Assembly: GCA_030248295.1 (NCBI GenBank) | Contig: JASANH010000626.1 | Location: 1,302,001 to 1,366,000 of the forward strand | Origin: Mesodorylaimus sp. YZB2_4 | Taxonomy: Eukaryota > Nematoda > Enoplea > Dorylaimida > Dorylaimidae | DNA length: 64,000 nucleotides | Reading direction: 5' to 3' | Shown here: one piece after another, positions 18,598-56,518 of the stretch | Layout of the letters: each line of letters opens with the position of its first letter | Position numbering within the stretch: position 1 is the stretch's first letter | Notes under the pieces: model-generated | Seen by the model: the letters and a program-made list of their open reading frames with translations, nothing else | Database searches by the model: none | Told to the model about the DNA's origin: nothing | Position numbers and translations under genes: made by a program

Positions 18598-20280
18598 TTA
18601 TAACGGCAACTCCAAGTCCGGCGTTTGGCTGAGGTCCAAACTGTTGCTTTTTCGCTCCTGCTGTTCTTCCGTCTGCTCCCCGCCAACGTCCGATGTGTCG
18701 TCGATGATCTCCAGGAGCATCGGTGTTACGCTATCGCTGCCGTGCTTGTTGGCAGCTTCGCACTTGAACATGCTGAGCGGCACGTCGGCCGGTGTTTGTT
18801 TGACCAAGAGATCTCCATTCGGCAACAACTACAAATGAAACAGCCATGTAGGCAGCGGAAAATTCTTGGTGATCGACATGCGTGCCACGTACGGCAGGTA
18901 TTATCATTAGTCATTCTGATGCCGTACAGAGTGTCATCATCTATAGAGCACCAAATTATTTTTCGGGAGAAAGTGAATCGTGGAAAACGATGCTCAGCCC
19001 ACGTCTTCTGGACTGTTGCCTCCCGCAAAGTCAATCTAAGTGTTGCGTCCTCGCTTGTCTGATTGCTTGATTACGCAAGTGTCTCGGTGCGGAAGCCTAG
19101 GTGTAGTCATTTTTGCAGGCACCTAGTGCCAATTGGATAAAACACTCTTCTGTCCGTACCATCAGAGCAAAGCGCACAAAAGCAATATCTCATCCCTAAC
19201 TACTAATCTCGTTAGGCCTCCTATCTGCGTCAACAGCGCTAATTCAATTGATCCCATGAACATCCGTTCATGCACTGAAAAGATTAAAAGTTGAGCGCCG
19301 CATTAGCGAGACTTATTCTAAAAAGCGGAGCTCGAAGGCCGAGGTACAAGAAAGAAATGCAGAGTTCAGACCCCTCAATCTGCTTACCGTATAACGAGGA
19401 TTGTCGCGACTGATTGGCCGTAAATTACTGGAATCGCCTTCAGCATCCAGGGTCTCATACCACACAATTTTAGGAGCTGGTGTGCCTGAAGCTCTGCACA
19501 TCAATTGCACCGAGACACCGGGACGTTCCATTCGTGAGTCGGTCCACATATAAATCTGGCCGGCTGCCGCGTGGTCTTCTGTGCAGTATGCAAGGAGGGC
19601 ATAAGCACAGAAGAACGTGTATCTCCCACCTTGGCTACTTACCAGTTCTTTTCCTTTGGCAGTCGCTTCCAGACCATAACAAATTGCCTAAAGCAATGAA
19701 CATGTTTGAGTATGATTTAGATGGCTTCCTACAACCTACCGAAATAGCTGTATAAGGATAGGTGCTGCAGCCAGTAGGCGTATGGTTCCGCGGAGAACGA
19801 GTGACCCAGAGAGTATAGCCTACGGAAGTATTTCAGCAGGCCTTTACCTTTTTCGACGAGGCCGATAGTGGCGTTGGCCGTGACCGTTTCTCGGCCATTG
19901 CTCGCCACACAAGTGTACAACCCAGCGTTATCTTTGCCCATGCAAGGAATATGGAGCTTGGAGCTGGTGGTCGACATTTGGAACGTTCGAATGCCGTAGT
20001 TGCTGATTCGCTCCGCGAAGACGGGCGATGCAAGAGCATTGAACTTCTTTTGTTGGTGTTGATGAGCGGTGGGCACAGGGGCATCTAGTCGAATTAGTTT
20101 CCCATTTTTTAGCCATTGAATGGTTGGCACCGGTGTCCCGAACGCTTCACAACTCAGTTCCAAACTCGAGCCGCTTAATACCTCGGTGCTTTTCGGTTCA
20201 TTAACGATGCTCAGCTGTGATCCAGCAGCCAGGTCTAGAAAGGTTAGGGCCGTGGCTGCGCTTACCAGGAAGGCGATCAT
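18598..20280 (-). CDS. Secreted two-Ig protein, ImpL2-like
   Basis: 284-aa secreted protein. Exons 20280-19848, 19578-19388 and 18828-18598; phases G|AA and 0 close exactly. A signal peptide (MIAFLVSAATALTFLDLAAG) is followed by two C2-type Ig domains: Ig1 about residues 24-130 (ELSCEAFG, IQWLKNG, AGLYTCVASNG) and Ig2 about residues 150-250 (VQLMCRASG, KIVWYE, MFKCEAANKHG). The strand before the last Cys reads LLPNGDLLV, the VLANGDLLIS-like hallmark of Drosophila ImpL2 and nematode zig proteins. No membrane anchor or GPI tail; the C-terminus is acidic and hydrophilic. ImpL2 (267 aa) binds insulin-like peptides and dampens signalling. The adjacent insulin-like gene on the same strand makes that role attractive here, but binding is inferred. 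An in-frame upstream extension exists; I chose the ATG that opens the signal peptide. Confidence 0.88.
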
Positions 20281-20806
20281 TCTCGAAAAAGACCGTCTAT
20301 TCGAGCTCGGTTTAGTACAGTGAGCGAACGAATGAGATGCAGAAACGTGCGTGGGAGGATTCGTCCAATCAGTCAACCTATTTACAGATTGATCGAGGGG
20401 CCTTCCTTTGTGCTCAATGCAATTACATCCCAGGCCTGCTCAGGAGGCAATACGTCGTGAGAAATCATGCCTTTTTCGAATCATCGAAATCGGCTAGGCT
20501 TATCAAATATTCATGCAATGACGTGGGTTGAAGCTGTTCGTCTTCATCACACCCGTTCCGAGCGCAAGTGATAGGAGGTGGAAGACAAGGAGGTCACGTG
20601 ATAACTGTATTCTTGATGGCCCCAGGCAACCCAGTGTCCTCACTTGGCTTCGAAGCCCCCACAGCAGAAATCATAAAACCGAAGGTCCTAGGAGTGACGG
20701 GTGCACCTGTCTACTAGTATATTTCCCAGCTCACCTTTATCTTCATCTTTTATTGACTCCAACGGCAAGGCCTAGAAAAAACCTCGAGTAGGAAAGGTCA
20801 TGAGAA

Positions 20807-25221: not shown

Positions 25222-26463
25222 TCAGGCCGCAGCAGGATAATAAAAGAAGTCCCCTTCCTGAAATCTTAGAATTACGTCATTGGCGCTTTTGAGTTCATTC
25301 ACAGCTTCTTCAACTTTCTTGGATTTCCACACTTGTAAGCATCTGTCACGAATACGAACTTTAAGCTTCCTTTTTAGAAGCACGTTGAAAGACTTCAATA
25401 TGCCCAAAGCCACGTCGTCTATCTCGACGTCCCTGATGGAATTGATCCATAAAAAGCTTAGCCATGGACAAGAGCGCATCAGCATAATAAGTGTAACTTG
25501 TGTCATATTGACGCAAAATTGGGCAAATTCAAGCGTAGAACATTTTGCCATCTGTCTCACGCCGTCGTCGATGTCGTTATCAGTCTTGTTGCACACCAGG
25601 GTGAGCTTCCTAATGTATTTTAGGTTCGCCAACGCAGCCACACCGACTCCAGTTACATTCATGCGAGCCAGGCAGAGAACTTCCAGTTGAGGGAAGGATT
25701 TTGCGATGGTTATCAATATGCTATCAGTAACATGATCAAAATCGCTGTTCCAAGCTAACAGTGATCGTAGACTGCTCAATCGCCAAAAGTGGAGCGAAAC
25801 ATAAATCGAACAATTGACACATTGCAGTCTCTTGAAGACCAATGTTTGAAGCCTCGGACAGTTGATAAAAAATTGATCCGTGATTTCTTGCGAGGCTAAT
25901 TGAGTCTGACTAGCTTCAAAATGCTCTAAATTTTGGCCAGAAAAAGTACGCAGAAACAACTCATCACAGTTGCATAAGTCTAACCTTCGCAAATTGTCGC
26001 TGGCCGCATCTTGGGGATAAGACAAGGCGCTTATCCCATTCGAAATAAGGTGATCTAATTTTGGCGTTCTCTTGATGAGTTCTCCAAACATTGGACTTCC
26101 AATTGGGGCGTCACCAAGATCTAGTTCGGTCAGACGAGGATAAAAGAAACTCGAAAATGTCTCAATCAGCAAGTCACTCTGACCATGATAAGATGAGCTC
26201 GAAGGAAAATTGATCCGCTCTAAATTAGTTGAACATAAATTCAATAAAATCGATAGTGATTCTGGCGTTATCCGTTCATAAACGTTGTCTTTCAAATTCA
26301 GCACTTTTAGCTGAGTAACGCAGAGTAATGAAATTCCGTTAAATCTTTTACTGACACAGCCGAGGCGTAAACGTTCTGGAAACTGGAGATGGTGAAATAT
26401 TTGAAGAAGAACATTGTCTGGCAAGGAGGAGAAGTCCATGATCCCAGATCGCGCCTTCAACAT
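25222..26463 (-). CDS. F-box/LRR protein 1
   Basis: Intronless 413-aa protein. Residues about 9-50 form an F-box (DFSSLPDNVLLQIFHHLQFPE then LGCVSKRFNG), which docks on SKP1 in SCF ubiquitin ligases. The rest is about ten irregular leucine-rich repeats (for example LTELDLGDAPIGSPMF, LRRLDLCNCDELF, LEVLCLARMNVTG) that would bind the substrate. ATGs at 26463 and 26439 both fit; the second begins exactly like the paralogue at 28228 (MDF-LPDNV). Two relatives lie in this window, one decayed (27.1-28.2 kb) and one intact (52.4-53.7 kb). Substrate unknown. Confidence 0.85.
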   Translation of the reverse strand: MLKARSGIMDFSSLPDNVLLQIFHHLQFPERLRLGCVSKRFNGISLLCVTQLKVLNLKDNVYERITPESLSILLNLCSTNLERINFPSSSSYHGQSDLLIETFSSFFYPRLTELDLGDAPIGSPMFGELIKRTPKLDHLISNGISALSYPQDAASDNLRRLDLCNCDELFLRTFSGQNLEHFEASQTQLASQEITDQFFINCPRLQTLVFKRLQCVNCSIYVSLHFWRLSSLRSLLAWNSDFDHVTDSILITIAKSFPQLEVLCLARMNVTGVGVAALANLKYIRKLTLVCNKTDNDIDDGVRQMAKCSTLEFAQFCVNMTQVTLIMLMRSCPWLSFLWINSIRDVEIDDVALGILKSFNVLLKRKLKVRIRDRCLQVWKSKKVEEAVNELKSANDVILRFQEGDFFYYPAAA

Positions 26464-27090
26464 GACGTGACCGCATTCACAAACTAGACTCCCTTAATTT
26501 TGGCCTCATTGTCGTGCGAAGAAAGGATTTTGATGAAACGTTGATTAACACTCGAAGTCGTCATGTGTGGGGATTTGAAAGACAGTACCAGTTCGCCAAC
26601 GCATTTTTGTCATGCCAGTGGCGCGTCGCATTTGTCATGTAACGACTACTGTACTGTAGTAGTGGGAGAGTTCTAGGAGGCGGCATCCGTCTGGACTGGA
26701 CGTGGTTCTTGAATGGGCGTACGAGGGCGCCATGAATCCTGTACTCATTGGCCTTGCTCTAAAGAGCTACCTACGAAATACGTGCCGTATTTCGACTATC
26801 TTTCGCCGAATAGCCAGATTCACCTCGCTCAAGCACCAGACTTGTATCAGCAGAAACTATGTACATAACTACAGTATATATACAGTAATTATATCCAGAG
26901 CCTCACAAGGAATGCTTACCAAGTGTTATGTGTTTCCCGGGATCGAGACTAGCGTCAAAATGGACAAAGGAAGACGAGTAAAAAGTTTGACATCAGTTTT
27001 CTGTAACATGCAAGAACACACTCTGAAGCATTTTACAATACGCTCTCGGCTCTCTAAAGCTCGCGGTCTTCCAAAACTATATCATCACAA
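26464..27090. other. Spacer between the two F-box copies
   Basis: Upstream region of F-box/LRR gene 1 and downstream region of the decayed copy. A 209-codon plus-strand frame starting at 26702 runs into the antisense of the pseudogene and shows no domain of its own. Confidence 0.45.
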
Positions 27091-29205: not shown

Positions 29206-32200
29206 TCAATGAGCTGAAGAAATGGTGTCTTCGAAAATAGTCATACTGGGTCGTTGACTCGGGTCACCGGTTACAAAATCAGAAAGGGTATTTGCCGCTG
29301 ATCGGCGCTTGTTTCGAGTTTTCTTTCGGGATGGGGAAATCGGGCTGGAAGAGTCGTCGCTGCAAGTGATCACAGAACTTGCCGAACTGATGGTGTGTGA
29401 TAAGGTGCGTGCGGACTTGTTACTTCCAACACTGATGACGCTTTTACGCCCATCCTCCTCATCGTTGTCGTCTAGGTCAAATTCGCGAATGCCTGCGTCG
29501 TCCTTTGGAGCCGTTGTCAAAGCGATGCTGTTCCTCTTCTCGATTTCCGCAGCTCCATAGACTGGTCCAGTGGATGGCAACTTCAAGTTAGCGCAACTGT
29601 CGCTCATCATGGACTCGTATCGAAGTAAAATATACAACTTGGGTCCAAACATGAAACACAAAATGACCGTACCGCAGGTCATCAGCTCCATGACCACCAC
29701 CGTGTCTTTGAACTGATCAGGTGTGGCGGCATAGCCAATCATCCAAGCCACCCAAGTAGCGGCGCATATGAGGGAGGTGTACATGAGCCAGCGGGTTTCC
29801 TTATAATTTCTTTTCACATTGCGGTTCAGCAATGCCAAAAACGAAGCCATGCACAAGAGGATGACGACGTAGATTTGGGAAGCCAAGAATTCGTCGTTGC
29901 TCCAACTACAGCGCATGACCACGGTGGGCGAGGACGTACCTGCATCGTCCACAACAGAGACCGCGACCGGGTGACGAACTATGGCCCATTGAATGCTCAG
30001 TGCCATTTGGACGGCGGCAATAAAAAAGAGTAGCAGCCAGTAGTTCCAATAAGATATGTAACCATTGAAACCCAACGTCTCGCTATTTCGCAATTGAACT
30101 GCTTTGGCGATCATGACTCCGAAGCAGACAGCGTACGAGAAACTGTGCGAGATGTATCGAAGACGACACAACGTTTCACACGCGTCAAATATGAAGAAAT
30201 AAGCAGTGCTGTAGAGTAAGATGACTCCGAACAAGAGGCAGATACCCAACGATTGATTTCCCTTTACGATTCCGCAGCATAGTTTCACACTGACAATGGT
30301 CAGTACCAGTGAGGCGGCAAAGAGCAGGATGGTATTGATGACCAAGAATATGTATGCCCGCACTTGTTTTTTCCATTGCTCTCTATTAGCTGGAGTGGCG
30401 GCTGCTGATCCACTACCCTCTTCAGCATCGTTACTGCTAGAGGATTTGATCTGGAAGGCCCCGGACGTATCGATTTCGTCAGGAATGCTACCACTTCCCA
30501 TGTGTCGCAGCTCTTTGTGCATAGCTTGACGGGGACGACAATAGCACGAGGGCGGTTTGCAGGTTGATTCCGGGGCAGTATAGTTGGGATTCCTGTCCGA
30601 GTCAAACCATGCCCAAGTATCGTTGAACTTCAAGCCGTCTTTGTCCGACCAAGTGGCGATCTGAAACGTAAAAGGGGGTTATCTGCAGCTATCACAGGTT
30701 TCTGCGACAATAGCGTTTTCTGACAGGCATGGTACAGTATATACGAGTAGTTACTAGGCAATCAGCAGAAGGACATTGCTGATTCAAACTTGGTGCAAGA
30801 TGGATGTCACATTAGCTCTTATAACAGCACATACCTCAACATAAGCACCGCCATTCATGTTATCCACATTGGGTCTGTAGTTATAAATGGTAAATTGGTC
30901 AGGTGTGTCCATTCGTGACAGCTGTTCATTGACACTGGCGATGTAGTCGCTGCCAAAAAACCCATCGCAAAGTCCTCCCTGTGCAGGGCATGCCTTCTTG
31001 TAAAACCTGTCCAAAGCTAAGGCGAATTTCTCGATGTTCGACATAAAATAAGCCTCGCGAGTCAAGCGTCCTGTCAATCGATCAATGGGCAATCGCTCCT
31101 CTCCAGTGCATGCCTTTTTGTGAGAGCTCTTTTCGTTATTGAGTGAGCACTTGAAATAATCTTCCCAGAAGCTGATAAACCATTTATCGGACATCTTTTT
31201 TGGATTGAGTGATGCCAAGAAAGTTTTGAATTCATCACCAGCTTCTTGCCGGAACTGAACTGATAACGCGCCTAAGGCCAACGATTTCCAGCTGCGTGCT
31301 CCACTTTGCTGTTTCGCTTCGACCTCCCAATCGTGGGCGTCACCCACAAAGATGTAGATTGGTCGGTCCTGACTATGGCCGTTATATGATTGGTGCGTTT
31401 TCAATATCAAAATCGTGTCTTGAGCTGTGGTGAAGGCCACGGTTATTCTGGTAGCTTGAGAGTTGGCACCACGGATCGATTGAATTCGTTCTCCTGACTG
31501 TGCGTATACCACGTCAGCGATACAGATCCGACCATCCGCCTCAGCCATTCGACGGAATGATTCGTATGATCGCTGGCAATCTTCATCATGCTCTGACAAC
31601 ACCACTGATACGTAATCCCATTTTTGTTTGTGTAGCAGAGAGATCAGAGCTTGTGATTGAGTGTCGAATGTGGGAGCAAAAGACGGGTCATTGTTGCGAG
31701 AGATGTCCGACTCGAAATTCGTACCAATAAATGGTTTCTTGTTCGCTCCTTGCCGCTGAAAAATTCGCTTAGCAAGATCGTAAATTACGCCTCGCTGTCC
31801 AGATGCCACTGCAGCCACGTTCTTAGACGGAATCGTAGCAGAGATACCGGGCGTCCCGACGACCAGGCATCTATCCGAAGCTGTGGCTGTCAGTGACTCC
31901 ATGGCTGCAATCCGATCGAAGCAAGAGTCCAATAGAATGGTACCGAGTTCAACCCCAGGTAGTAGATTCAAATTAGGGTGCTTTCTGCGTATATTCTCAA
32001 GCGTATAAATGAACGCGGCTGGCATTAAAATTACACTCGAATCATTAATCGATCGATTACAGCTGGATGAATCGGCATCGAATCCTTGCCTCATATCAAA
32101 CAGACCAACGATGTACAATTCGGATGATTTCTGTATCCATACCTGATCCGAGGCCAGTACATGAGACCGCTCAGTTGCACAAGTCTGACATTCTGGAAGC

Positions 32201-34977
32201 CAGGATTTGCAACGAGCTCTAATCGCCTCTCCGTCCGTCCATCGTATGACTGAGGAGTGAACGCGACTCGGATCCATCTGCGAGTTGGTCGTATGGTTTA
32301 GTATTGACTCCACGCGGAGGTCCGTGTCTCTTCTGACATACAGTCCTTCTATCGGCAGCGAAGCCAAGGTACGGTCAGCACCAAACCGAACCACATATCC
32401 GCGATAGGATGGCGGATCGGACTCCCCGAATGTATAAGATACCTTCTTCTCCAAGAAATTCAAGATCAATTGCGTGCACTCTGGTCCGACAGTGTCGCAT
32501 GTGTCATCTCTATCGGCAGCCACGTATTTTGCCAGGGTGCCGTAAATATAAGTCGCCAAGACAGCTGATTCGACTTGACGATTCATGCGGAACCCCCTGA
32601 CCATATCGTCGTAGTCTACGTCCTCGCAATCGATCATGCCCGCAGTGCCGATCAACGTACAGTTATACTCTTGCTGCATGTAGGTGGCCAAAAGGACGTA
32701 CGTCTCATAGTTGTTTCTTAAAATATCCAGGAAATAATCTCGGAAATCGTCTTCAATAAACAAATTGGACTGTTGTATAATGGCCAACTGATAAGATGCA
32801 CCCTGAGGGATTAAGAAATCGGCCATCTCCAATCGACTCCACGTTTCGCCCAAAGCGGGTATCAATATGAAAAATTTTTTGAGATTAGATCCTGATAACT
32901 GCGGACTCGTCATAAAAAAATTGATCATCTCGTCTTTGGAAGCTATCACGACGACTATTTCGCTTGAATTGTTATCGATCAATTTTGGATCATTCAGAGG
33001 AACGACCTTGGTGTACGATACTCTGGCTTTAGATAATGTAGCCATCTGCTTTTCCAATGTCACCTTCTCTACGTGTTGATCACTATAGATTACTGTGATC
33101 AAATCAGTTTGCATCGATTTCAGTAGGCTGATGGCAGCCTAGAAAAAATTGTTGTCAGTCTAGAAATGTTTCTTTCTAATCTTCACTAGCTCTCGATCTG
33201 TTAGCACTGATACGTGTCGCATGTTCAAAGTACTTGTATCTGCTCTGTTTTGCTGCGTAAGATTTCATGCGGAATACGTGCAGGGTGAGAGCTACCAGTG
33301 AAACTAACTTGTAAGTGGGCTATGTTCCATCTCCTCCATTTCCTCATACCTGCATGTAATGATCTAAAGTAGGCGCAGTACTGAACGCAGTTTGCACTCC
33401 AGCATCGAAAAGGGCCTGGGCTGTCGACCCCGAGTAGGCAAGCATTGGCACTCGAACACTGAGCAATGCTTCTTTCAAACCTTTCAAGCGTCCGTCTTGC
33501 GCCATTGGCATGACCAAACCTAAGTACAAGACAGGTACATGCATGATCTAACCAACAAAATCAAGTATTTACCCAAGGGTATTCGTCCGTTGGCATCACC
33601 TGATCGACATTCTTTGGGACTAAAAAAGCCACTTTCGTGCAGGAATGCCATGGTTTGACTCAAGCTTTCCTGTCCTCTCGAGCATGTATCAAATGCGGAG
33701 AGGGCTAAAAAAGTTCCAAATTGAGCTTCAAAAGTGTCATTCAAAAAGTCATTACAAATTTACCTAATTTGAAATTGGCATTTTGTGGATTTTGATTCCA
33801 GCGCGAGAGGGCCCATTGTACACCAATCAACTCTTGCACGGCGTCTGGTCGTACGTGCAAACAATCGTCGGTATGCAGTGGAAAGGGCCCTCCAATTTGA
33901 AACTGAAAAACAATGTAAATTTTTTTAATGTTGTGAAAACCTGCTATACTTCAATAAAGGCTTGTCGGCTTGGCATGTACGCTTTGTAATTTCCTCGAAC
34001 CTACAGCATTAATTTACATTCTTAGGAGTACTTTTTGAAAGTTTTGTTCTCATGTTTAGGGTTTGTGGGGAAATGAAGGTAACCAGTCGAATGTGCTCTA
34101 TTTGCTGCACTCTATCGGCTGGCGTAATGGTCTCATTTGAGTTGTACAGACTAGCGCGAAGGTGAAGAAAAACTGGCCATGGCATCCGATATAGAACAGC
34201 ATCCGGCCCGATTTTCAGTAAAAGTATTATGGGTATGTGCTCAAGTGTCGGTGTTTAGGGCCCATTTCGGTCGTTTGATGGAACATAAACAGGCAGCCGA
34301 ACGATAGAAGCAGGGCGTGAAATTTAGTACGGCCTTTTTCCGTCCAGTTTTATCATACATACAGTCCCGTTCTCTCGCTTTTGACTTGTGGGACTGTACA
34401 TGATTGATTGGACTGATGGAAGTATCTGCATATTGCCAAGATGGATCGAGTTTAGGACTCGAAATTAGACTGATAGCTGTTTTTTAAGATGTTGGCGGAT
34501 AGCGACAAAACGGAGAAAGTAAAATCGGAGAAAATTGACGGCATAATAATTGGTGCACGTCTTGATTTTACTCGTTCGGTATTTACTTTTTCCATCTTCC
34601 TTTGATGGTGGGTCCTTCGACCAAATTTTAGGGACAACCAAAAAAGGCTTTTGGACTGGATCTGAAGGCCTCGAAAATAATGATAAGGATTCTCTCAACT
34701 AGTGCCACAAAACTTACCCGAAAAACAATGGGTGAAAACAACAACACCTGGCTTTAAAAAATGTGAAAAGCAAGTCACTGCCAGTGGACACAGATATGAT
34801 ACCTTGATTTGGCTCCAGATCCCAATCAGGAAGGCTGGTTCACACAGAACTTATGCCAGCACTCACCTTAGCATTCTCCGGTGTTACTCTGAACGGTTGA
34901 AACACGGTGCACAACTGTCCGTGGGACAATTGTGCACTTCCCAAAATAACTATCAGCCGTATTGGCCAAACACTCAT
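29206..34977 (-). CDS. Class C GPCR with tandem Venus-flytrap domains
   Basis: 1,436-aa receptor. Exons: 34977-34867, 33902-33764, 33704-33573, 33519-33350, 33138-30835 and 30660-29206; all junction phases fit. Exon 1 encodes a signal peptide (IRLIVILGSAQLSHG). Residues about 38-470 form a first ligand-binding Venus-flytrap of the metabotropic glutamate type (GGPFPLHTDDC, AFDTCSRG, PMLAYSGSTAQALF). Residues about 520-945 form a second one (LYIVGLFDMRQG, ELGTILLDSCFDRIAAMESL, WDYVSVVLSEHDEDCQRSYE). A short CKPPSCYC linker replaces the usual nine-Cys domain. Seven helices follow (about 1054-1305), with FGPKLYILLR at the end of TM7, the class C PKxY motif, and a Ser-rich tail. The orphan receptor would signal through G proteins at the plasma membrane; ligand unknown. 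The 964-nt first intron holds no gene. Confidence 0.85.
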
Positions 34978-44538: not shown

Positions 44539-47500
44539 TTATGGAGAATTGCGGTCGGTGTCATCGACAGTGGCCCCTTCTTCATCATCCTCGTCATCCA
44601 TTCCAGTCGTCTCGATGCAAGCTGGAGAATTCCCATTGTCGCCCATACTCGCCCCGCTGCAAGCGGCCATAGTACGCATTGATGAGCCCAATATGTTGGT
44701 GCCACCATTTGAACCAACGCTGGCAATCGACGAGGACATTTGAACCAAAGATTCTTTACCAAAAATTTGTAATACGTCCATTTTCAAAATGAAAGGAATG
44801 ACGTTCTCGATTTGTACATTGCCGATAAGACCGGAGAAGAATAATTCGACCAAGATTTGTTTGTTCAATGATCTCAATGTTGGCAGCATCAACAACAGTT
44901 CGCTGAACCTTTCATCGCCTGCTTTAGTATCCTGCAATTTGCATGTCTCCGATTGACAATTAGCTTTACTGGACGGACTCTCCGATCGTTGGTTGTTCGT
45001 CGATGTGTATTGCTCATCATCATTTTGATCGCGTTGCTCCTCGTCCAAAGTATTTTCGTGACCGTTCTCCCCATTAGCTTCTTTCGCCTCTGCCACGTCT
45101 TGCGTAACCACATCGATTATTTTCTCGTTTTGAGAAGCTTCTTCCTGATCCATAGCGTCATCGGATTCGTTTTGACGTTCATCGTTGACTTGGCTGATAC
45201 AAACTTGACGTAATTCTTCGCAAGCACGCTTTCGGATAATACGGAATCTCTGAGAATTCGAAGTGCTGACTGAATCTGAAACGAGACACACATAAGCCAT
45301 AACGTTACTAAAGACCTAAGACTGGCAAGCCATGTATCACACAGCCCCATAGGACCTATCTGAACAGGAAGGCCTGCTATTCTGCTTATTCGTGTAGTTT
45401 TTTAGCCTGAATTCCAACGGATACATTGCGAACGTGCTTCCCTCAACCCGTTCCTTCAAGGCGCGAGCTTACCAGTCGCCGTAAATGCGATGACTTTCAA
45501 GTATCCAAATTCCGAATTGGAAATATTCATTTCTTCGTACAACCGAAGGAAGGCTTGCAAGCAGCCAATCTGTTCTTGAACCTCCTCGTACTTCTCCATT
45601 TTTAGTTGTCCCAATAAGGTGCAGGTGTGCAGATGGGTGGCCATGGCCGTTAGCATGCTGGACAAGCAGAACTGGTTCGCGCATTGCAACAGGCCGAGAA
45701 TGAATATTTCGCACCAACGTTGCTTCAAGACAGTCTCGCTTGTAGTATCAGGCCTAGAATAAGTAGACAGTAAGCCCTAGGCACGCCCGACCATTAGGCC
45801 TAAAATGGCTTACTTTAGATTCAGAGGCGCAATACTTTTCAACCAATGGACGGATAGGAACAGTAGTCGACTGGCCGTTTCGCATATGTACTGCATATTC
45901 AATACGGGGGGCATGGGCAATGGGCTGGGCAGCTCGAACGAGGCCATATCCGTGGTCAATAATGGGGCGCTGTCGAGCACGACCGTATCGGTTTCTTGTT
46001 GTTGAGCGAGCTCCTTGTCCATGCGCGCACCGCTCGACGACGATGAATCATGAGTGCGTCGTAGTTCGTCCTCGTCGTCATCCTCGTCATCATCGGCCGT
46101 GGCATTCGATCGTCCAGCGGTGACCGACATGTTGTTTCTATTATCGCTGTCGCCGTCCTCAGAATTGGCACCGCTCGAGCGTCCATTACCATTTCCGAAA
46201 GCGTCACTCGGACTTGTAGAAGGTCTCTGGCGACTTTGCTCGTCGGCGAAAAAGCCTCGACTCAACTGATGACCATTGTTATGGCCATTCAGGGCCAGCA
46301 AGACGGAATTTCGATTGCTTTGCACCTAAAAGGAAAACTTTAGGTTTACACCCTTCGGTAGCTGTACACAGTCAAGGGAGGGAGAAACATTAGCCGTCCC
46401 CCCGCAATGCCGACCTTTGCTTCCCCTTTGCATCCGCATGAATAGCACATTTTTCATAATGCTCTCAGCCCTGTGCGTGGTAATACCCAAGCCTAATCTG
46501 TTTTTGCTTTATATCTGCACCAAGTTCTAACGTCATTTTCAAAGGGGATTGTGATAAAGGTGATCCCACCCCCTCACATTGACAGAATTGCAAGTCCTCT
46601 GCCTTACCTCTCCATTTATAGCATTTCCCAGGCGTTGTAGCTTAGCAGGCGGTGGGAGGTGTTCAGAGTCAGCTTTCATATCTTCAGCCACACTTTCCAA
46701 GGCCGTTATGCCGCCCGAACCTGGACAAGAACCCGGAGGGCGCCTTTCAGCTTGTACAGCTACAAGCGAAGGACAAAAACGTTAGTGCTAGCCAGCTAGA
46801 AGTCACCTCTCGAAGAAGCTAACTTACACTCACTGCGCATGCCGCTGGCTAAACATTTCTTTAGTCGACAGTACTGGCAACGGTTTCGATGAAATTTCGT
46901 CACCGGGCAGTCTTTGTTACCGCGGCAGAGGTAGCCAATTTTCTGAAACAGAGGAGACGCGACATGTGGCAAGGAGACTACGGACAGTAGTAGAATGTTG
47001 TGCATGTAGCAAAGTAGAAGATGAGACGAGTAGGTACTGTCGGAGTCTCTATGGCACGTTAGTTCAACGGGCTCGAGTTTTGTGATTGACAAAGCTGATG
47101 CCCCAATTTTGGCAGGGGGCCCGAGAAAGGTATGTGCACGACTTACTTTGCGTATTGATCGCTTGAAGAATCCTTTGCAGCCCTCGCAACTGACCACGCC
47201 ATAGTGACGTCCCGAGGCTTTATCACCGCACACCACGCACAGGTCAGCCAAGGTGGCGGGGGTAGAGGGCGAGTTGGTGGCGGCAATGATGGCCGATGAT
47301 TTGTTCTGCAGAGGTTGTTGTCCTTGACTCGAATTGATCGGCGTGGCATTTGCCGATGACCCCGTCTGCTGCCGTGCACCATGACCCATGACTGTGCGCA
47401 TAAATTGCTGTAGAAGCGGCGACGCGCCAGCCGCTCCCGTCGAGGATGTCAGCTGCGGCTGTTTTTGCTGCGAACTCGGGGCGACAGTTGGCGTCGACGA

Positions 47501-47928
47501 GGACGCGGAAATGAAACTGGCAGTTGACTGCTGTCGTTGTTGCTGTTGTAGTAAACCGGCGGCCGCTACCTGTACAGTCAGTGCACGGCTAAACAAACGG
47601 CGTGATAAGACGTCAGAGAGTGGCGCATACCTGAATCATTGCCAACATAGCGCTGGGAGAACTGTACAGGTCGGTTAGGGAGCTCGGCGATGCGTGATTA
47701 TTGTTCATGGCGTTGGCCAGCAGGGACGTGGCCGTGGCCGATCTGCGAAGGTGACTCAGCGTCGGAGATGATGGCGGCGAGCAGGTCTGTCATGAACACA
47801 TCAGCAGTTAGGGCCTTATAGCGACACGCGAGTGGCTTAGGTCAGAATCGAGGATGAAGGGGGCGTAAATCAGCGGTAAGCAAAGATCTAATCAGGGCAC
47901 TTACCTCTCGTTTAATGACACCCTTCAT
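44539..47928 (-). CDS. Nuclear receptor, NR2C (TR2/TR4, HR78) type
   Basis: About 797-aa transcription factor. Exons: 47928-47905, 47786-47631, 47569-47147, 46942-46834, 46759-46608, 46325-45814, 45753-45473 and 45275-44539; phases all close. DNA-binding domain about residues 171-238: [15 protein letters not shown]-box [37 protein letters not shown], closest to Drosophila Hr78 and vertebrate TR2/TR4, which bind direct repeats of AGGTCA. The ligand-binding domain starts near residue 425 ([19 protein letters not shown]) and ends with [15 protein letters not shown] before the AF-2 region. The N-terminus is Ser/Gln-rich and opens with IKRE, a possible SUMO site. The reading frame stays open upstream of ATG 47928 to an acceptor at about 48029, so a further N-terminal exon is possible. 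Confidence 0.9.
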
Positions 47929-52430: not shown

Positions 52431-53654
52431 TTAGATCATCACGTCCCAAAATCGGACTGCCAGTCCTTCTTCAAACTTGACCACACCTCCACCACTGAGT
52501 TGCAGCTGACCCCACGCCGCGTTGACCACTGGCGATGTCCATATTACGGCACTGACCTCGTGGCAAATACGTATGACCACATTCACACTACTGTGTAATC
52601 CTTGCAGGGACTGAACGAAGGCAGCAGCCGTCTCTGGTGTCGCGATCTCTTTCACTTTCCAAACATACACGAATCTGAGTCCTGTGCAAACTGTGATCAG
52701 TGTTCGCAATGTGGCCGGACTAATACTGTAGTAGAATTGCAATTCTTGCAACCTGCCACCCTCAGCAATACGACGTATGCCCTCATCGATGTCTCCCTCG
52801 CCAGTGTTATAGGTATTCTCAAAATATAGCTTCTTCAGACTCGGTAAGGTCGCCAGTGCGGAAACTGCTTCTTTGGTGACGTACAACCAAACAAGACCTA
52901 ATTCCTCCAACTGAGAAAAACAGTTGGATATCTTGGTCAATTCCACGTCAGTGAATCGATGCATGGGATCAGCGCATATGATCAGAGTGCGTAATGAGGA
53001 AAGCTGCCAAAAATGTGGCACATGCTCAAAGGAAAAGTTGCCACTCATTTCTCGAAATATCAAGGCATCTAGGTTTTGATAATTGGCAAATGTGGCGTCC
53101 AGAATTTCTCTAGATACATTGGTTTGAATTTCAGTTTCAAAATACTTCAAATTTGGAAATCGATCAATAATAGATCGGAACGAGTCATTATTGAAACCAT
53201 TAATTTTTAAAACCTTTAACTTTTCCAGAATGCAGTCTTGGGGGAAGACGGGCGATGTGCCGTTGTGGTTCCACATAAAACTTTTTAGATTTTGGTGATT
53301 GCGCAATAAGCTAGCAAACAGGTCGTTCCCGATTCTGGTGTGATCGATACGTATTTCAGAAAGGCGGGGACATGAAAATTGGGAAAATGCCTCTATTAGG
53401 GATCGATCGAATGAACGTGGAAAGATGATCCGTTCCAGACGATTGCTGCAGAGTTTGAGCAAAGATGACAAATTCGATGGTCGAACTCGCTTGAAGATCG
53501 GATCATTTAAGTCCAAACTTCTGGTTTCAGACAAAGCTATGCATGAAATTTGGTGAAAACGAGGACTAGTGCTAGATATACGCACTTGCTGGTCCAATGA
53601 TAAGAAACGAAATACATGAAGCAGTGCCTGATCTGGTAGCAGATCTAGGGACAT
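52431..53654 (-). CDS. F-box/LRR protein 2
   Basis: Intronless 407-aa relative of F-box protein 1. F-box at residues 3-45 (LDLLPDQALLHVFRFLSLDQ, then STSPRFHQIS), then irregular leucine-rich repeats (LSEIRIDHTRIGNDLFASLL, LEELGLVWLYVTKEAVSAL, LKKLYFENTY). It probably selects a substrate for an SCF ubiquitin ligase. The C-terminal module SISPATLRTLITVCTGLRFV matches those of the other two copies, showing common descent. Start at ATG 53654, directly before the F-box as in paralogues. Confidence 0.85.
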   Translation of the reverse strand: MSLDLLPDQALLHVFRFLSLDQQVRISSTSPRFHQISCIALSETRSLDLNDPIFKRVRPSNLSSLLKLCSNRLERIIFPRSFDRSLIEAFSQFSCPRLSEIRIDHTRIGNDLFASLLRNHQNLKSFMWNHNGTSPVFPQDCILEKLKVLKINGFNNDSFRSIIDRFPNLKYFETEIQTNVSREILDATFANYQNLDALIFREMSGNFSFEHVPHFWQLSSLRTLIICADPMHRFTDVELTKISNCFSQLEELGLVWLYVTKEAVSALATLPSLKKLYFENTYNTGEGDIDEGIRRIAEGGRLQELQFYYSISPATLRTLITVCTGLRFVYVWKVKEIATPETAAAFVQSLQGLHSSVNVVIRICHEVSAVIWTSPVVNAAWGQLQLSGGGVVKFEEGLAVRFWDVMI

Positions 53655-53688
53655 TTTGTCAGGGTGTTTTCCCAGGTGATAGCTATGA

Positions 53689-53900
53689 TTAACACCACCT
53701 GTTAGTGTTTGCTGTTGCCTGGAAGACGAGACGTATGCTTACGTTCCTTGCTTCTATAGTACGCAAGTTTCTATAACCAGCTAACAAATTTGGCGGGAAA
53801 TTTAAAATCTGCACCTGATTGAAATGCAAAGTACGTACTGCCTTGTTGTGATTTGAGACATATGTACATATTAGCAAGAGACTTTGCTCAATGTATGCCA
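53689..53900 (-). pseudogene. Orphan leucine-rich-repeat exon fragment
   Basis: The minus strand encodes VRTLHFNQVQILNFPPNLL followed by GYRNLRTIEARN and then a GTAAGC donor (near 53742). The L-x-F/L-x2-N-like spacing suggests an extracellular LRR protein rather than the F-box family. Nothing upstream continues it, because LINE sequence begins within about 300 bp. It may be a gene piece cut off by that insertion, or chance. Confidence 0.3.
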
Positions 53901-53949: not shown

Positions 53950-56518
53950 TAGTCAACGGCGTCAGGAACGTCTTACATGCACACCATTCCAAGGGAGGCC
54001 TACAGATGCCACTTTCGAGCACAAATTCATTCGGTAACCAATTGTAACCGATGCCAGCTCAACATAACGAGAGGTGCGCTCCGCACTCTGCCAGTTCTAG
54101 ATTGGATGTTGCGCCTAGGCCTAACTGAGGACCTAACTGAGGACCCGATTGATTGGCTCACTGCGTCACTTCTGCGGACCCAAGCTTGTAGCCTTATTGA
54201 CGACATTGGAGGAGTACAAACTGTGGTGGGGACCCGACTCGCCAGGGTAAATCGCTATTCGATTGGGTAATAGTGGGTAATCTCGTCACCGCTACACTTC
54301 TGTCTGTCCGCCCATTTCTACCTCTGATCATAATGTGATTGGTATCCAGATTTCCCGTTCTTTTGAAGTGTAAAAAACAGCATCAAGATTTGCGGAAAAT
54401 ATGGTTGCTTCGAGATATAGATTGGGAGACTGTGAACTGTCGTATTGCTTCTGCGAACTGTACTAATTTGGTCAACTCTGCCGAGACTATCGACGTGGCT
54501 TGCCATCTATTGACGACTAAGATCTCTAATATTCTGCGTGAACTAGTACCGCAGCGGACTGTTAAGATAGCAAATCGTCAATTATGGATGACAACTGAGG
54601 TGTTGGCTATGAGTCGGGCCAAGAATGAGACGTATATACGATGGAAACGAGATCGATCGACCAATGATCATCACTGATTTTTGAACTTAAGGCGTCAATG
54701 TCGCAAGATTAAAGAAGCAAAATCTAACTACATTTCGGCCACGTTCTCAAATTGTTCGAGCTCCACTGATTTATGGTCTACCTATCATCGTCTAACACCA
54801 GACGACCGATCGATTCCAACGCTGTTTGTCCACCCTGACCGCCCATTAATCACGGCAGGAGAGAAAGCAAATGCTTTTCAAAAGCAGTTTCTTTCCAATT
54901 TTAACGACAGCGACTACGGCTCCTTTGGTCAGCTTCTGAAGGATCCGGATGATTTTTGCGAGTATTTGGCGACCGTCGCATCGGTTCTCAGTGATCTACA
55001 ACGACTTAAACGTCAAAAGGCTCCTGGCGACGACGGTTTATCCCCATCGATCATAAAAAATATTGCACCGTCAATCGCAGGCCGATTAAGTGTCCTAATT
55101 AATCGATCAATTTTGGAAGAGAAGTTCCCATCGAAGTGGAAACTAGCTCAAGTCATTCCGATTCCAAAGTCAAATGAAAAGTCTGACTTGAAGAACTTTC
55201 GGCCGATCTCACTGTTGTCAATTCTGTCCAAAATACTCGAACGGCATATTGAACGTCTTATTCGTCCTCGAGTTAATTTGTCCCAACATCAGCACGGATT
55301 TTGTGAACGACGATCGACTACTGGGGCCTTATTAGTTGTACACAACCAATGCATAACTGGCTTAGTCAACGGCAGTATTCTGCAGTGACTGGTATTTTCT
55401 AGGATATTGAAAAGGCCTTCGATCGCGTCCCGCATTCACTTTTGTCAGAGACACTACAAAGGCATCATCAGATTCCTCCGACTCTGCTCAACTGGCTACA
55501 CTCGTATTTTTCAGATCGTCAGCAATACATCAGCGTGAAGGACTGTGCATCTTGCACTGAACGAGTGGTTTCTGGTGTGCCGCAGGGCAGTATCCTTGGT
55601 CCGCTGCTCTTTGTGGCCATTACTGATCCATTATTGCGACAGTTTTATAAGAAGTTCCCAGATTTACGCCTGCAGTGCTATGCGGACGATACCTGTCTCT
55701 TGGTTCCCGCTCGAGACATTAGAGAAGCTGAAAGCACGATTCAACCTGCCCTTGAATTTGTTATAAACTGCATACGATCAGTCGGTTTGTCAATTAACCG
55801 TCAAAAAGTCAAGCCACTCTTTTTCGATACAGCCCTCGTGCACCTAGCAGCACACCTTCGATCACTATTAACGGGCAGAAGCTTATCTTCGTCAATACGG
55901 TATTTTATTTGGGGGTGACTCTCTCTGGTGACATGAAATTTGCAGAGCATGTCACCAATGTTTGCTCAAGCACGCGACGCATGTTAGGAGTGCTGCGTCG
56001 ACGACTTGGAAGACATGCTCCGTCGAAGGTGATGCAAACTGTTTACTCTGCGTGCGTTCGTACAAAATCGGAATATGCCCGTCAGGCGTTGGATCCCATT
56101 CTGAAATCGGACATCGAAAATTTGGAAAGCACGCAAAGGTGCGCTCTTCGGCTCATCACAAAGGACTGGATAGATACTTATGATGAGCTTTTGTGTCAAT
56201 GCGGCTGGAGTACCCTAAGCAGGAGGCGAAAAGAACTGAAACTGGTCCAGCTTCATAAATTTTATCACGGTGCGCATGATTATGGAAACGCTTGTTTTTT
56301 TTGCACGGTCTGGACGTAAACTCTATAAGACACAGAAGCCGGCGTGTAAATGGAGCATACGTTACATATACCTACCCTGTAATCAGACCAGGACTAAGTC
56401 GTTTGAACAGTGTTTTAATTACTCTGCTATTCGTTTGTGGAATTCGTTGCCTTGTGATGTGGCCTGGCTTTACGATGCCAGCTCTTTTGAAGAAGCACTC
56501 ACCAGTCAGAAACTGTAA
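53950..56518 (+). mobile_element. Degenerate non-LTR retrotransposon (LINE)
   Basis: Remains of an ORF2 of the Jockey/CR1-like group. The end of an APE-type endonuclease is visible at 54323-54334 (SDHN then VIGIQ). Reverse transcriptase runs 54681-55900: KRQKAPGDDGLSPSIIKN, FRPISLLSILSKILERHIE, DIEKAFDRV (motif A), GVPQGSILGPLLF, and YADD at 55679-55690 (motif C). The thumb and C-terminal region continue to SFEQCFNYSAIRLWNSLP and end near 56518. It is broken: at least three frame changes, and a TAG at 55400-55402 directly before the motif A Asp. The 5' part is too decayed to delimit and no poly-A tail is clear. Confidence 0.88.

Follow-up and report, generated by a model that had tools for sequence, protein, structure and literature searches.

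A predicted single-chain class C G-protein-coupled receptor with two Venus-flytrap modules in series in a dorylaimid nematode

We analysed a stretch of 64,000 nucleotides from the nematode Mesodorylaimus sp. YZB2_4 (GenBank assembly GCA_030248295.1, contig JASANH010000626.1, positions 1,302,001 to 1,366,000), referred to here as the window, and found on its minus strand a gene that very probably encodes a class C G-protein-coupled receptor (GPCR) carrying two Venus-flytrap modules of the metabotropic glutamate receptor (mGluR) type in series on one chain, an architecture that we read from the sequence with little reservation. In class C GPCRs, which dimerise obligately, activation usually involves a receptor of two chains, each with a single flytrap. 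The gene model, which we assembled manually from splice sites and open reading frames in genomic DNA, runs from an ATG at 34977 to a stop codon ending at 29206 and encodes 1436 residues without an internal stop; GT-AG borders with consistent phases were found at all five introns, and the coordinates match exactly those of the six-exon gene proposed by an earlier sequence-only reading of this DNA. That reading had estimated an ectodomain of about 1,000 residues, and we found about 1,050, with module 1 and its linker at residues 38-509 and module 2 and its linker at residues 522-995. Each module has its own opening strand and motif (FQIGGPFPLH...DTC in module 1, LYIVGLFDMR...DSC in module 2), and a short cysteine linker then leads into a seven-transmembrane (7TM) domain that matches 7tm_3 at 118.2 bits (E = 6.5e-34; Pfam cut-off 33.5 bits), both as had been foreseen. 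The joint between the modules falls within exon 5 and that between module 2 and the 7TM domain within exon 6. To this outline our analysis adds a cysteine linker after module 1 as well, a two-flytrap paralogue and a five-flytrap relative.

Both halves of the ectodomain exceeded the Pfam cut-off for the ANF_receptor profile (25.4 bits), in line with the two successive flytraps previously proposed. Residues 1-514, holding module 1, scored 38.8 bits (E = 7.6e-10; match 64-261, profile positions 5-196 of 353), and exon 5, holding nearly all of module 2, scored 50.5 bits (E = 2.1e-13; profile positions 5-254 of 353). When each module was searched separately against PDB sequences with phmmer, mGluRs headed the matches of both, with mGlu7 for module 1 (E = 1.3e-5) and mGlu6 for module 2 (E = 7.3e-21, over 14-476 of 488). 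A two-sequence profile of module 1 reached E = 9.5e-8 against mGlu7 (positions 4-379 of 476), and hhalign aligned module 1 with mGlu4/6 at 94.6% probability (2-318 of 472). The two modules share just 15% identity with each other. These profile matches to both halves contradict the arrangement that the sequence-only reading had named as its refutation, a single flytrap plus an unrelated spacer.

The same two-flytrap order is found in a paralogue on another contig (C128, L013), which aligns with the window gene from FQIGGPFPLH/YQIGGPFSLH through the C-terminal ISSAH/ISSVH, linker 1 included. Its model starts at module 1, the signal exon not having been sought; one of its introns has a GC donor, an extra intron lies inside the first loop of module 2, and the end of module 1 shares an exon with the first strand of module 2. 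The window gene and this paralogue are 55% identical in module 1, 49% in module 2 and 71% in the 7TM domain, and the proportions of nonsynonymous and synonymous differences (pN/pS) are.291/.781,.329/.794 and.173/.764, respectively; no dN/dS is quoted because synonymous sites are saturated. By this comparison of sequences all three domains are constrained between the window gene and C128. A pseudogene reading of the window gene was dropped, since the model has no stop and both modules and the 7TM domain show constraint.

A search of the same genome (145 Mb, 1067 contigs) with 7tm_3 gave 19 matches, grouped into 15 loci including the window. One of them, at C19:439289-449590 on the plus strand (L009/L010, here C19; its stop lies a few bases beyond), was modelled as 17 exons with GT-AG introns that encode at least 3007 residues laid out as five flytraps, V1 to V5, followed by a 7TM domain; the model lacks both the 5' end and the first strand of V1. 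All five flytraps lie above the ANF_receptor cut-off (V1 38.2, V2 90.6, V3 113.7, V4 72.8 and V5 65.5 bits), and no Pfam match was obtained for the exon in which V5 ends and the first helices lie. Every joint is found within an exon: exon 8 holds V1/V2, exon 10 (809 codons, two ANF_receptor stretches) holds both V2/V3 and V3/V4, exon 12 holds V4/V5 and exon 13 V5/7TM. Judged by eye, several cysteine linkers of this gene lead into Ser/Thr/Pro-rich spacers.

A control profile was built from ten modules (two from the window gene, two from C128, five from C19 and one from a further locus on the C19 contig, C19b, at C19:540433-543132) together with mGlu4/6, and was run over the six-frame open frames of the 15 loci within their fetched flanks. 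It passed twice in the window, twice in C128 and five times in C19, and once each in C13, C171, C249, C3, C327, C40, C45, C47 and C19b; there was no pass in C318, C57 and C82, the profile being one that misses distant flytraps. The scores of the window, C128, C19 and C19b are by construction, because these loci trained the profile, and it is the eight single-pass loci outside the training set, with one flytrap each, that serve as the control. The count of one for C19b is weaker because Pfam does not recognise its flytrap. At least two complete flytrap passes before one 7TM domain, with joints inside exons, were thus found in the window gene, C128 and C19; in C128 one exon reaches as far as the first strand of module 2. 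The sequences suggest a small divergent subfamily in this genome in which the ectodomain would grow by flytrap-plus-linker units: two, two, five and, in C19b, probably one.

Other class C loci from this search have features of their own. C19b (L011, minus strand), about 90 kb from the five-flytrap gene, is a 900-codon frame with a class C 7TM domain (72.1 bits), a three-cysteine linker and a divergent flytrap-like stretch. In C318 a GABA-B-like flytrap stretch that the control profile does not report was seen by eye. At C40:280500-290000 on the minus strand (L012), the open reading frame 284597-281880 runs for 906 open codons from the end of a flytrap through a cysteine-rich stretch and a class C 7TM domain (70.9 bits) to a protein kinase (PF07714, 180.4 bits; HRDVKSQN and DFG by eye), and the start of the flytrap lies upstream (66.3 bits). 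Fusions of a 7TM domain with a tyrosine kinase are reported in choanoflagellates and sponges and not in other animal lineages, according to the excerpted text of PMC12716839.

A three-cysteine linker ends all ten modules compared. In the window protein NCD3G, the cysteine-rich domain that receptors of the mGluR/CaSR/T1R group carry between flytrap and 7TM domain, gave no match up to E 0.1, and linker 2 (CKPPSCYC) carries only three cysteines. The three-cysteine linkers resemble the opening of the mGluR cysteine-rich domain (SSLCSLP, where the mGlu6 match ends), and they are probably truncated remnants of that domain, copied along with the flytrap. Cysteine pairs of the fold are largely kept: all ten modules have the LB1 pair, nine the FHC/KCT pair (C19_V4 has lost both cysteines) and eight the LCP/GLC pair (the exceptions being C19_V3 and C19b). 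The cysteine that ties the flytrap to the cysteine-rich domain in mGluRs is kept in eight of the ten, window module 2 included. The apical-loop cysteine, which forms the intersubunit disulphide in mGluRs, is present in 4/4 modules of the two-flytrap genes, in 1/5 modules of C19 (the first) and in C19b; its occurrence in both modules of a chain would be a hint only of dimerisation.

Several observations weigh against the tandem-flytrap reading. No flytrap is recognisable in the final ~100 residues of module 1, which stay unaligned with mGluRs although they are conserved in C128, and Pfam finds nothing in the C128 exon that carries the second half of its module 1. The flytrap-to-linker cysteine is absent from module 1 of both genes, and an apical-loop cysteine in both modules would fit a side-by-side pair within the chain equally well as dimers between chains. 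An AlphaFold model of the unspliced exon 5 had a mean confidence (pLDDT) of 47.6, and its Foldseek match (E = 4.2e-15, query template-modelling (TM) score ~0.2, root-mean-square deviation (rmsd) 24) is uninformative on geometry. A model of C19 exon 10 had a mean pLDDT of 49.7 and matched the mGlu2 ectodomain at E = 1.4e-24 (target TM score 0.58, rmsd 9.8), a predicted likeness that agrees with the sequence evidence and is not taken as structure. Finally, of the residues that contact glutamate in mGlu4 (Ser159, Thr182, Tyr230 and Asp312), window module 2 retains one of four (Thr) and window module 1 none, or one (Thr) in the PDB-search and hhalign alignments, while C19_V2 retains Tyr and Asp, all of these readings depending on alignments at 17-28% identity to mGlu4. 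The ligand of the window receptor is thus probably other than glutamate, as far as residues can tell, and one or both modules may bind no amino acid because the contacts are mostly lost in both.

The trees place the duplication of the modules before that of the genes, because the module 1 copies of the window gene and C128 pair at 100/100 and so do their module 2 copies. Module 1 groups with C19_V1 at 74/91 when mGlu4/6 are in the tree and at 86/94 when they are left out and C19b is included; module 2 groups with C19_V5 at 84/89 in one tree, a grouping absent from the best tree of another, and the joint constraint was not rejected (approximately unbiased test, p-AU = 0.478). Constraining the four window/C128 modules together gave p-AU = 0.055, and the five C19 modules together p-AU = 0.069. 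In a 7TM tree of 12 rows, some partial and with long branches, the window gene, C128 and C19 form a group at 97/94 to which six mGluR-like loci from this genome do not belong, and C19b attaches at 90/93 on a long branch. This grouping, as far as so small a tree can show, and the lack of a detectable cysteine-rich domain in the window protein tell against a standard mGluR or CaSR orthologue whose extracellular region has expanded locally. We hold that reading to be very improbable, even though the 7tm_3 domain and the mGluR best matches are what such an orthologue would have. No relatives were found among 120 pattern matches in GTDB contigs or 85 in viral contigs.

Very improbable, too, is a split locus, in which a secreted flytrap protein and a receptor with one flytrap would be separate genes joined in error by the prediction or the assembly, the outcome that the sequence-only reading had named as overturning its one-chain claim. 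The window model was built from DNA alone, which also tells against our own reading, and a genome-wide Pfam search on unspliced DNA recovered module 2 and missed module 1. With two genes it would be hard to explain that the module joint sits inside the uninterrupted 768-codon exon 5, that the layout recurs in C128 on another contig with an extra intron elsewhere, and that every module joint of C19 is likewise within an exon, and the first two of these directly contradict a split locus.

Taken together, the best overall explanation is in our judgement a tandem-flytrap class C GPCR with mini-linkers and the coupling mechanism proposed here, to which we give a probability of roughly three in four. 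The membrane-near module 2 would couple its closure to the 7TM domain via linker 2; module 2 and linker 2 keep cysteines equivalent to those that help to transmit flytrap closure to the 7TM domain in mGluRs, and the window 7TM domain scores as class C. The outer module 1 would lie above module 2 as a second sensor or an allosteric cap, and the receptor would still dimerise, giving a two-storey ectodomain of 2 + 2 flytraps. We lean slightly towards two storeys rather than a side-by-side arrangement within one chain because the connection of ~20 residues after linker 1, found in both the window gene and C128, would be easy for stacking and tight for folding back alongside. By analogy, such an outer module over an inner one may be likened to ionotropic glutamate receptors, whose amino-terminal domain sits above the ligand-binding domain and is regulatory.

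The distribution of the apical-loop cysteine, in every module of the two-flytrap genes and in the first of five only in C19, is what would be expected of an internal pseudo-dimer in which one chain does the work of two mGluR chains, its modules side by side, and may act as a monomer. We consider this unlikely, as homodimers would keep both cysteines too and the ~20-residue connection, which would have to double back from the base of module 1 to the upper end of module 2, would by our estimate be at the limit of an extended chain. Closer to the balance, and still somewhat short of an even chance, is the possibility that only one module senses a ligand and the other has become a structural stalk, an adhesion surface or a partner-docking domain: the glutamate contacts are mostly lost in both modules, and module 1 has no flytrap-to-linker cysteine and an unrecognisable end. 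Yet the paralogues differ no more in module 1 than in module 2 (module 1 has the higher identity and the lower pN), which argues for real constraint on module 1. Returning to the tandem receptor with a driving inner module, we regard as evenly balanced the wider proposal that an animal class C lineage left the one-flytrap-per-chain rule by repeating a flytrap-plus-mini-linker unit, with multiple inputs, a membrane-near module that drives the 7TM domain and diverged outer ones that gate it.

Table 1. Coordinates of the exons and domains of the two-flytrap receptor gene in the window ("profile" gives profile positions).
Feature	Position	Strand	Evidence
Exon 1: ATG and signal-peptide-like N-terminus (MSVWPIRLIVILGSAQLSHG)	34867..34977	-	Open frame, GT donor; signal peptide judged by eye
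Exon 2: start of flytrap module 1 (FQIGGPFPLHTDDC)	33764..33902	-	Splice sites; profile positions 3-65
Exon 3: module 1, including DTC motif	33573..33704	-	Splice sites; profile 57-100
Exon 4: module 1	33350..33519	-	Splice sites; profile 106-160
Exon 5: second half of module 1, linker 1, nearly all of module 2; 768 open codons	30835..33138	-	Profile 160-487, then 2-449; ANF_receptor 50.5 bits in module 2 part
Linker 1 (CKSWLPECQTC), three cysteines, after module 1	32179..32211	-	
Flytrap module 2 and its linker; spans intron 30834-30661	30538..32127	-	
Exon 6: last strand of module 2, linker 2, seven-helix domain, C-tail, stop	29206..30660	-	7tm_3 118.2 bits
Linker 2 (CKPPSCYC), three cysteines, where a full cysteine-rich domain would sit	30538..30561	-	
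Class C seven-helix domain, FGPKLY at TM7	29623..30357	-	7tm_3 match

Elsewhere in the window, the minus strand carries a nuclear-receptor-type zinc finger at 46796-47635 (two zf-C4 stretches, 95.6 bits), a pair of similarly long F-box genes at 25222-26493 and 52431-53738 that also show leucine-rich-repeat-like matches, and an immunoglobulin-domain protein at 19729-20439 (Ig_3 58.4 bits, I-set 54.1 bits); a reverse-transcriptase-like fragment, below the Pfam cut-off, lies on the plus strand at 54678-55388. RNA-family and tRNA scans of the window found nothing. In the genome at large, C73:253316-254668 (L030), on a contig of more than 250 kb, holds a long stretch resembling COX1 that contains ten TGA codons, and after it a frame of mitochondrial appearance; a COX1 copy reads well under the invertebrate mitochondrial code, the sole mitochondrial code tried, and the 15 COX1 matches genome-wide suggest several mitochondrial insertions. 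Lipocalin gave eight matches genome-wide (L024-L029), some sharing contigs, and the four complete frames that were read share a QENF...RYxGKWxENY start. Col_cuticle_N (PF01484), the nematode cuticle collagen domain, gave 133 matches, which point to a nematode or perhaps a near relative such as a horsehair worm. A tardigrade origin, considered at first, was rejected; a heat-soluble-protein query had no match, which by itself says little, and the lipocalin loci did not bear on the matter. The C. elegans-type SL1 sequence was not found in the genome at zero mismatches.

Among the matches listed in open-access literature, as titles and abstract openings, there was no report of a class C GPCR with at least two flytraps per chain; an annotated but unremarked case may exist in subscription papers or domain databases, which lie outside that search. 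The excerpted text of PMC12716839 gives animal class C ectodomains as ANF with NCD3G, ANF alone, or Cache with EGF, and suggests a constraint on architecture. Chains that carry two and five flytraps in nature put the picture of a single flytrap per chain and two chains per active receptor directly to the test: one can ask which module couples to the 7TM domain, whether it is gated by the outer modules and whether the receptor still requires a second chain. A simple route to more receptor inputs is suggested as well, in which the sensor-plus-linker unit is repeated and the 7TM domain stays single; should several modules prove to have ligands, a single gene would yield a multi-input sensor.

Compared with known systems, the window family shares with mGluRs the mGluR-type flytraps with most of their fold cysteines and a class C 7TM domain, in which we noted by eye an FxPKxY-like motif and the cysteines of the third transmembrane helix and the second extracellular loop; it differs in that each chain has two or five flytraps, that no cysteine-rich domain was found and that the glutamate contacts are mostly lost. 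Ionotropic glutamate receptors, which are ion channels, stack two bilobed domains per chain. GABA-B receptors gain their second flytrap through heterodimerising. They too have a flytrap joined to the 7TM domain without NCD3G (excerpted text of PMC12716839), whereas the window gene has mGluR-like flytraps, a three-cysteine linker and both modules on one chain. In bacteria, BvgS and CdgH carry two bilobed periplasmic-binding-type modules in series per chain, according to the excerpts of PMC4352136 and PMC5431781, but their output is a kinase or a cyclase and they are not GPCRs. Venus kinase receptors, lastly, are invertebrate proteins with a class C-type flytrap (excerpts of PMC3703292 and PMC4026697), and differ from the window receptor in that this flytrap is followed by a single transmembrane segment and a tyrosine kinase in place of a 7TM domain.

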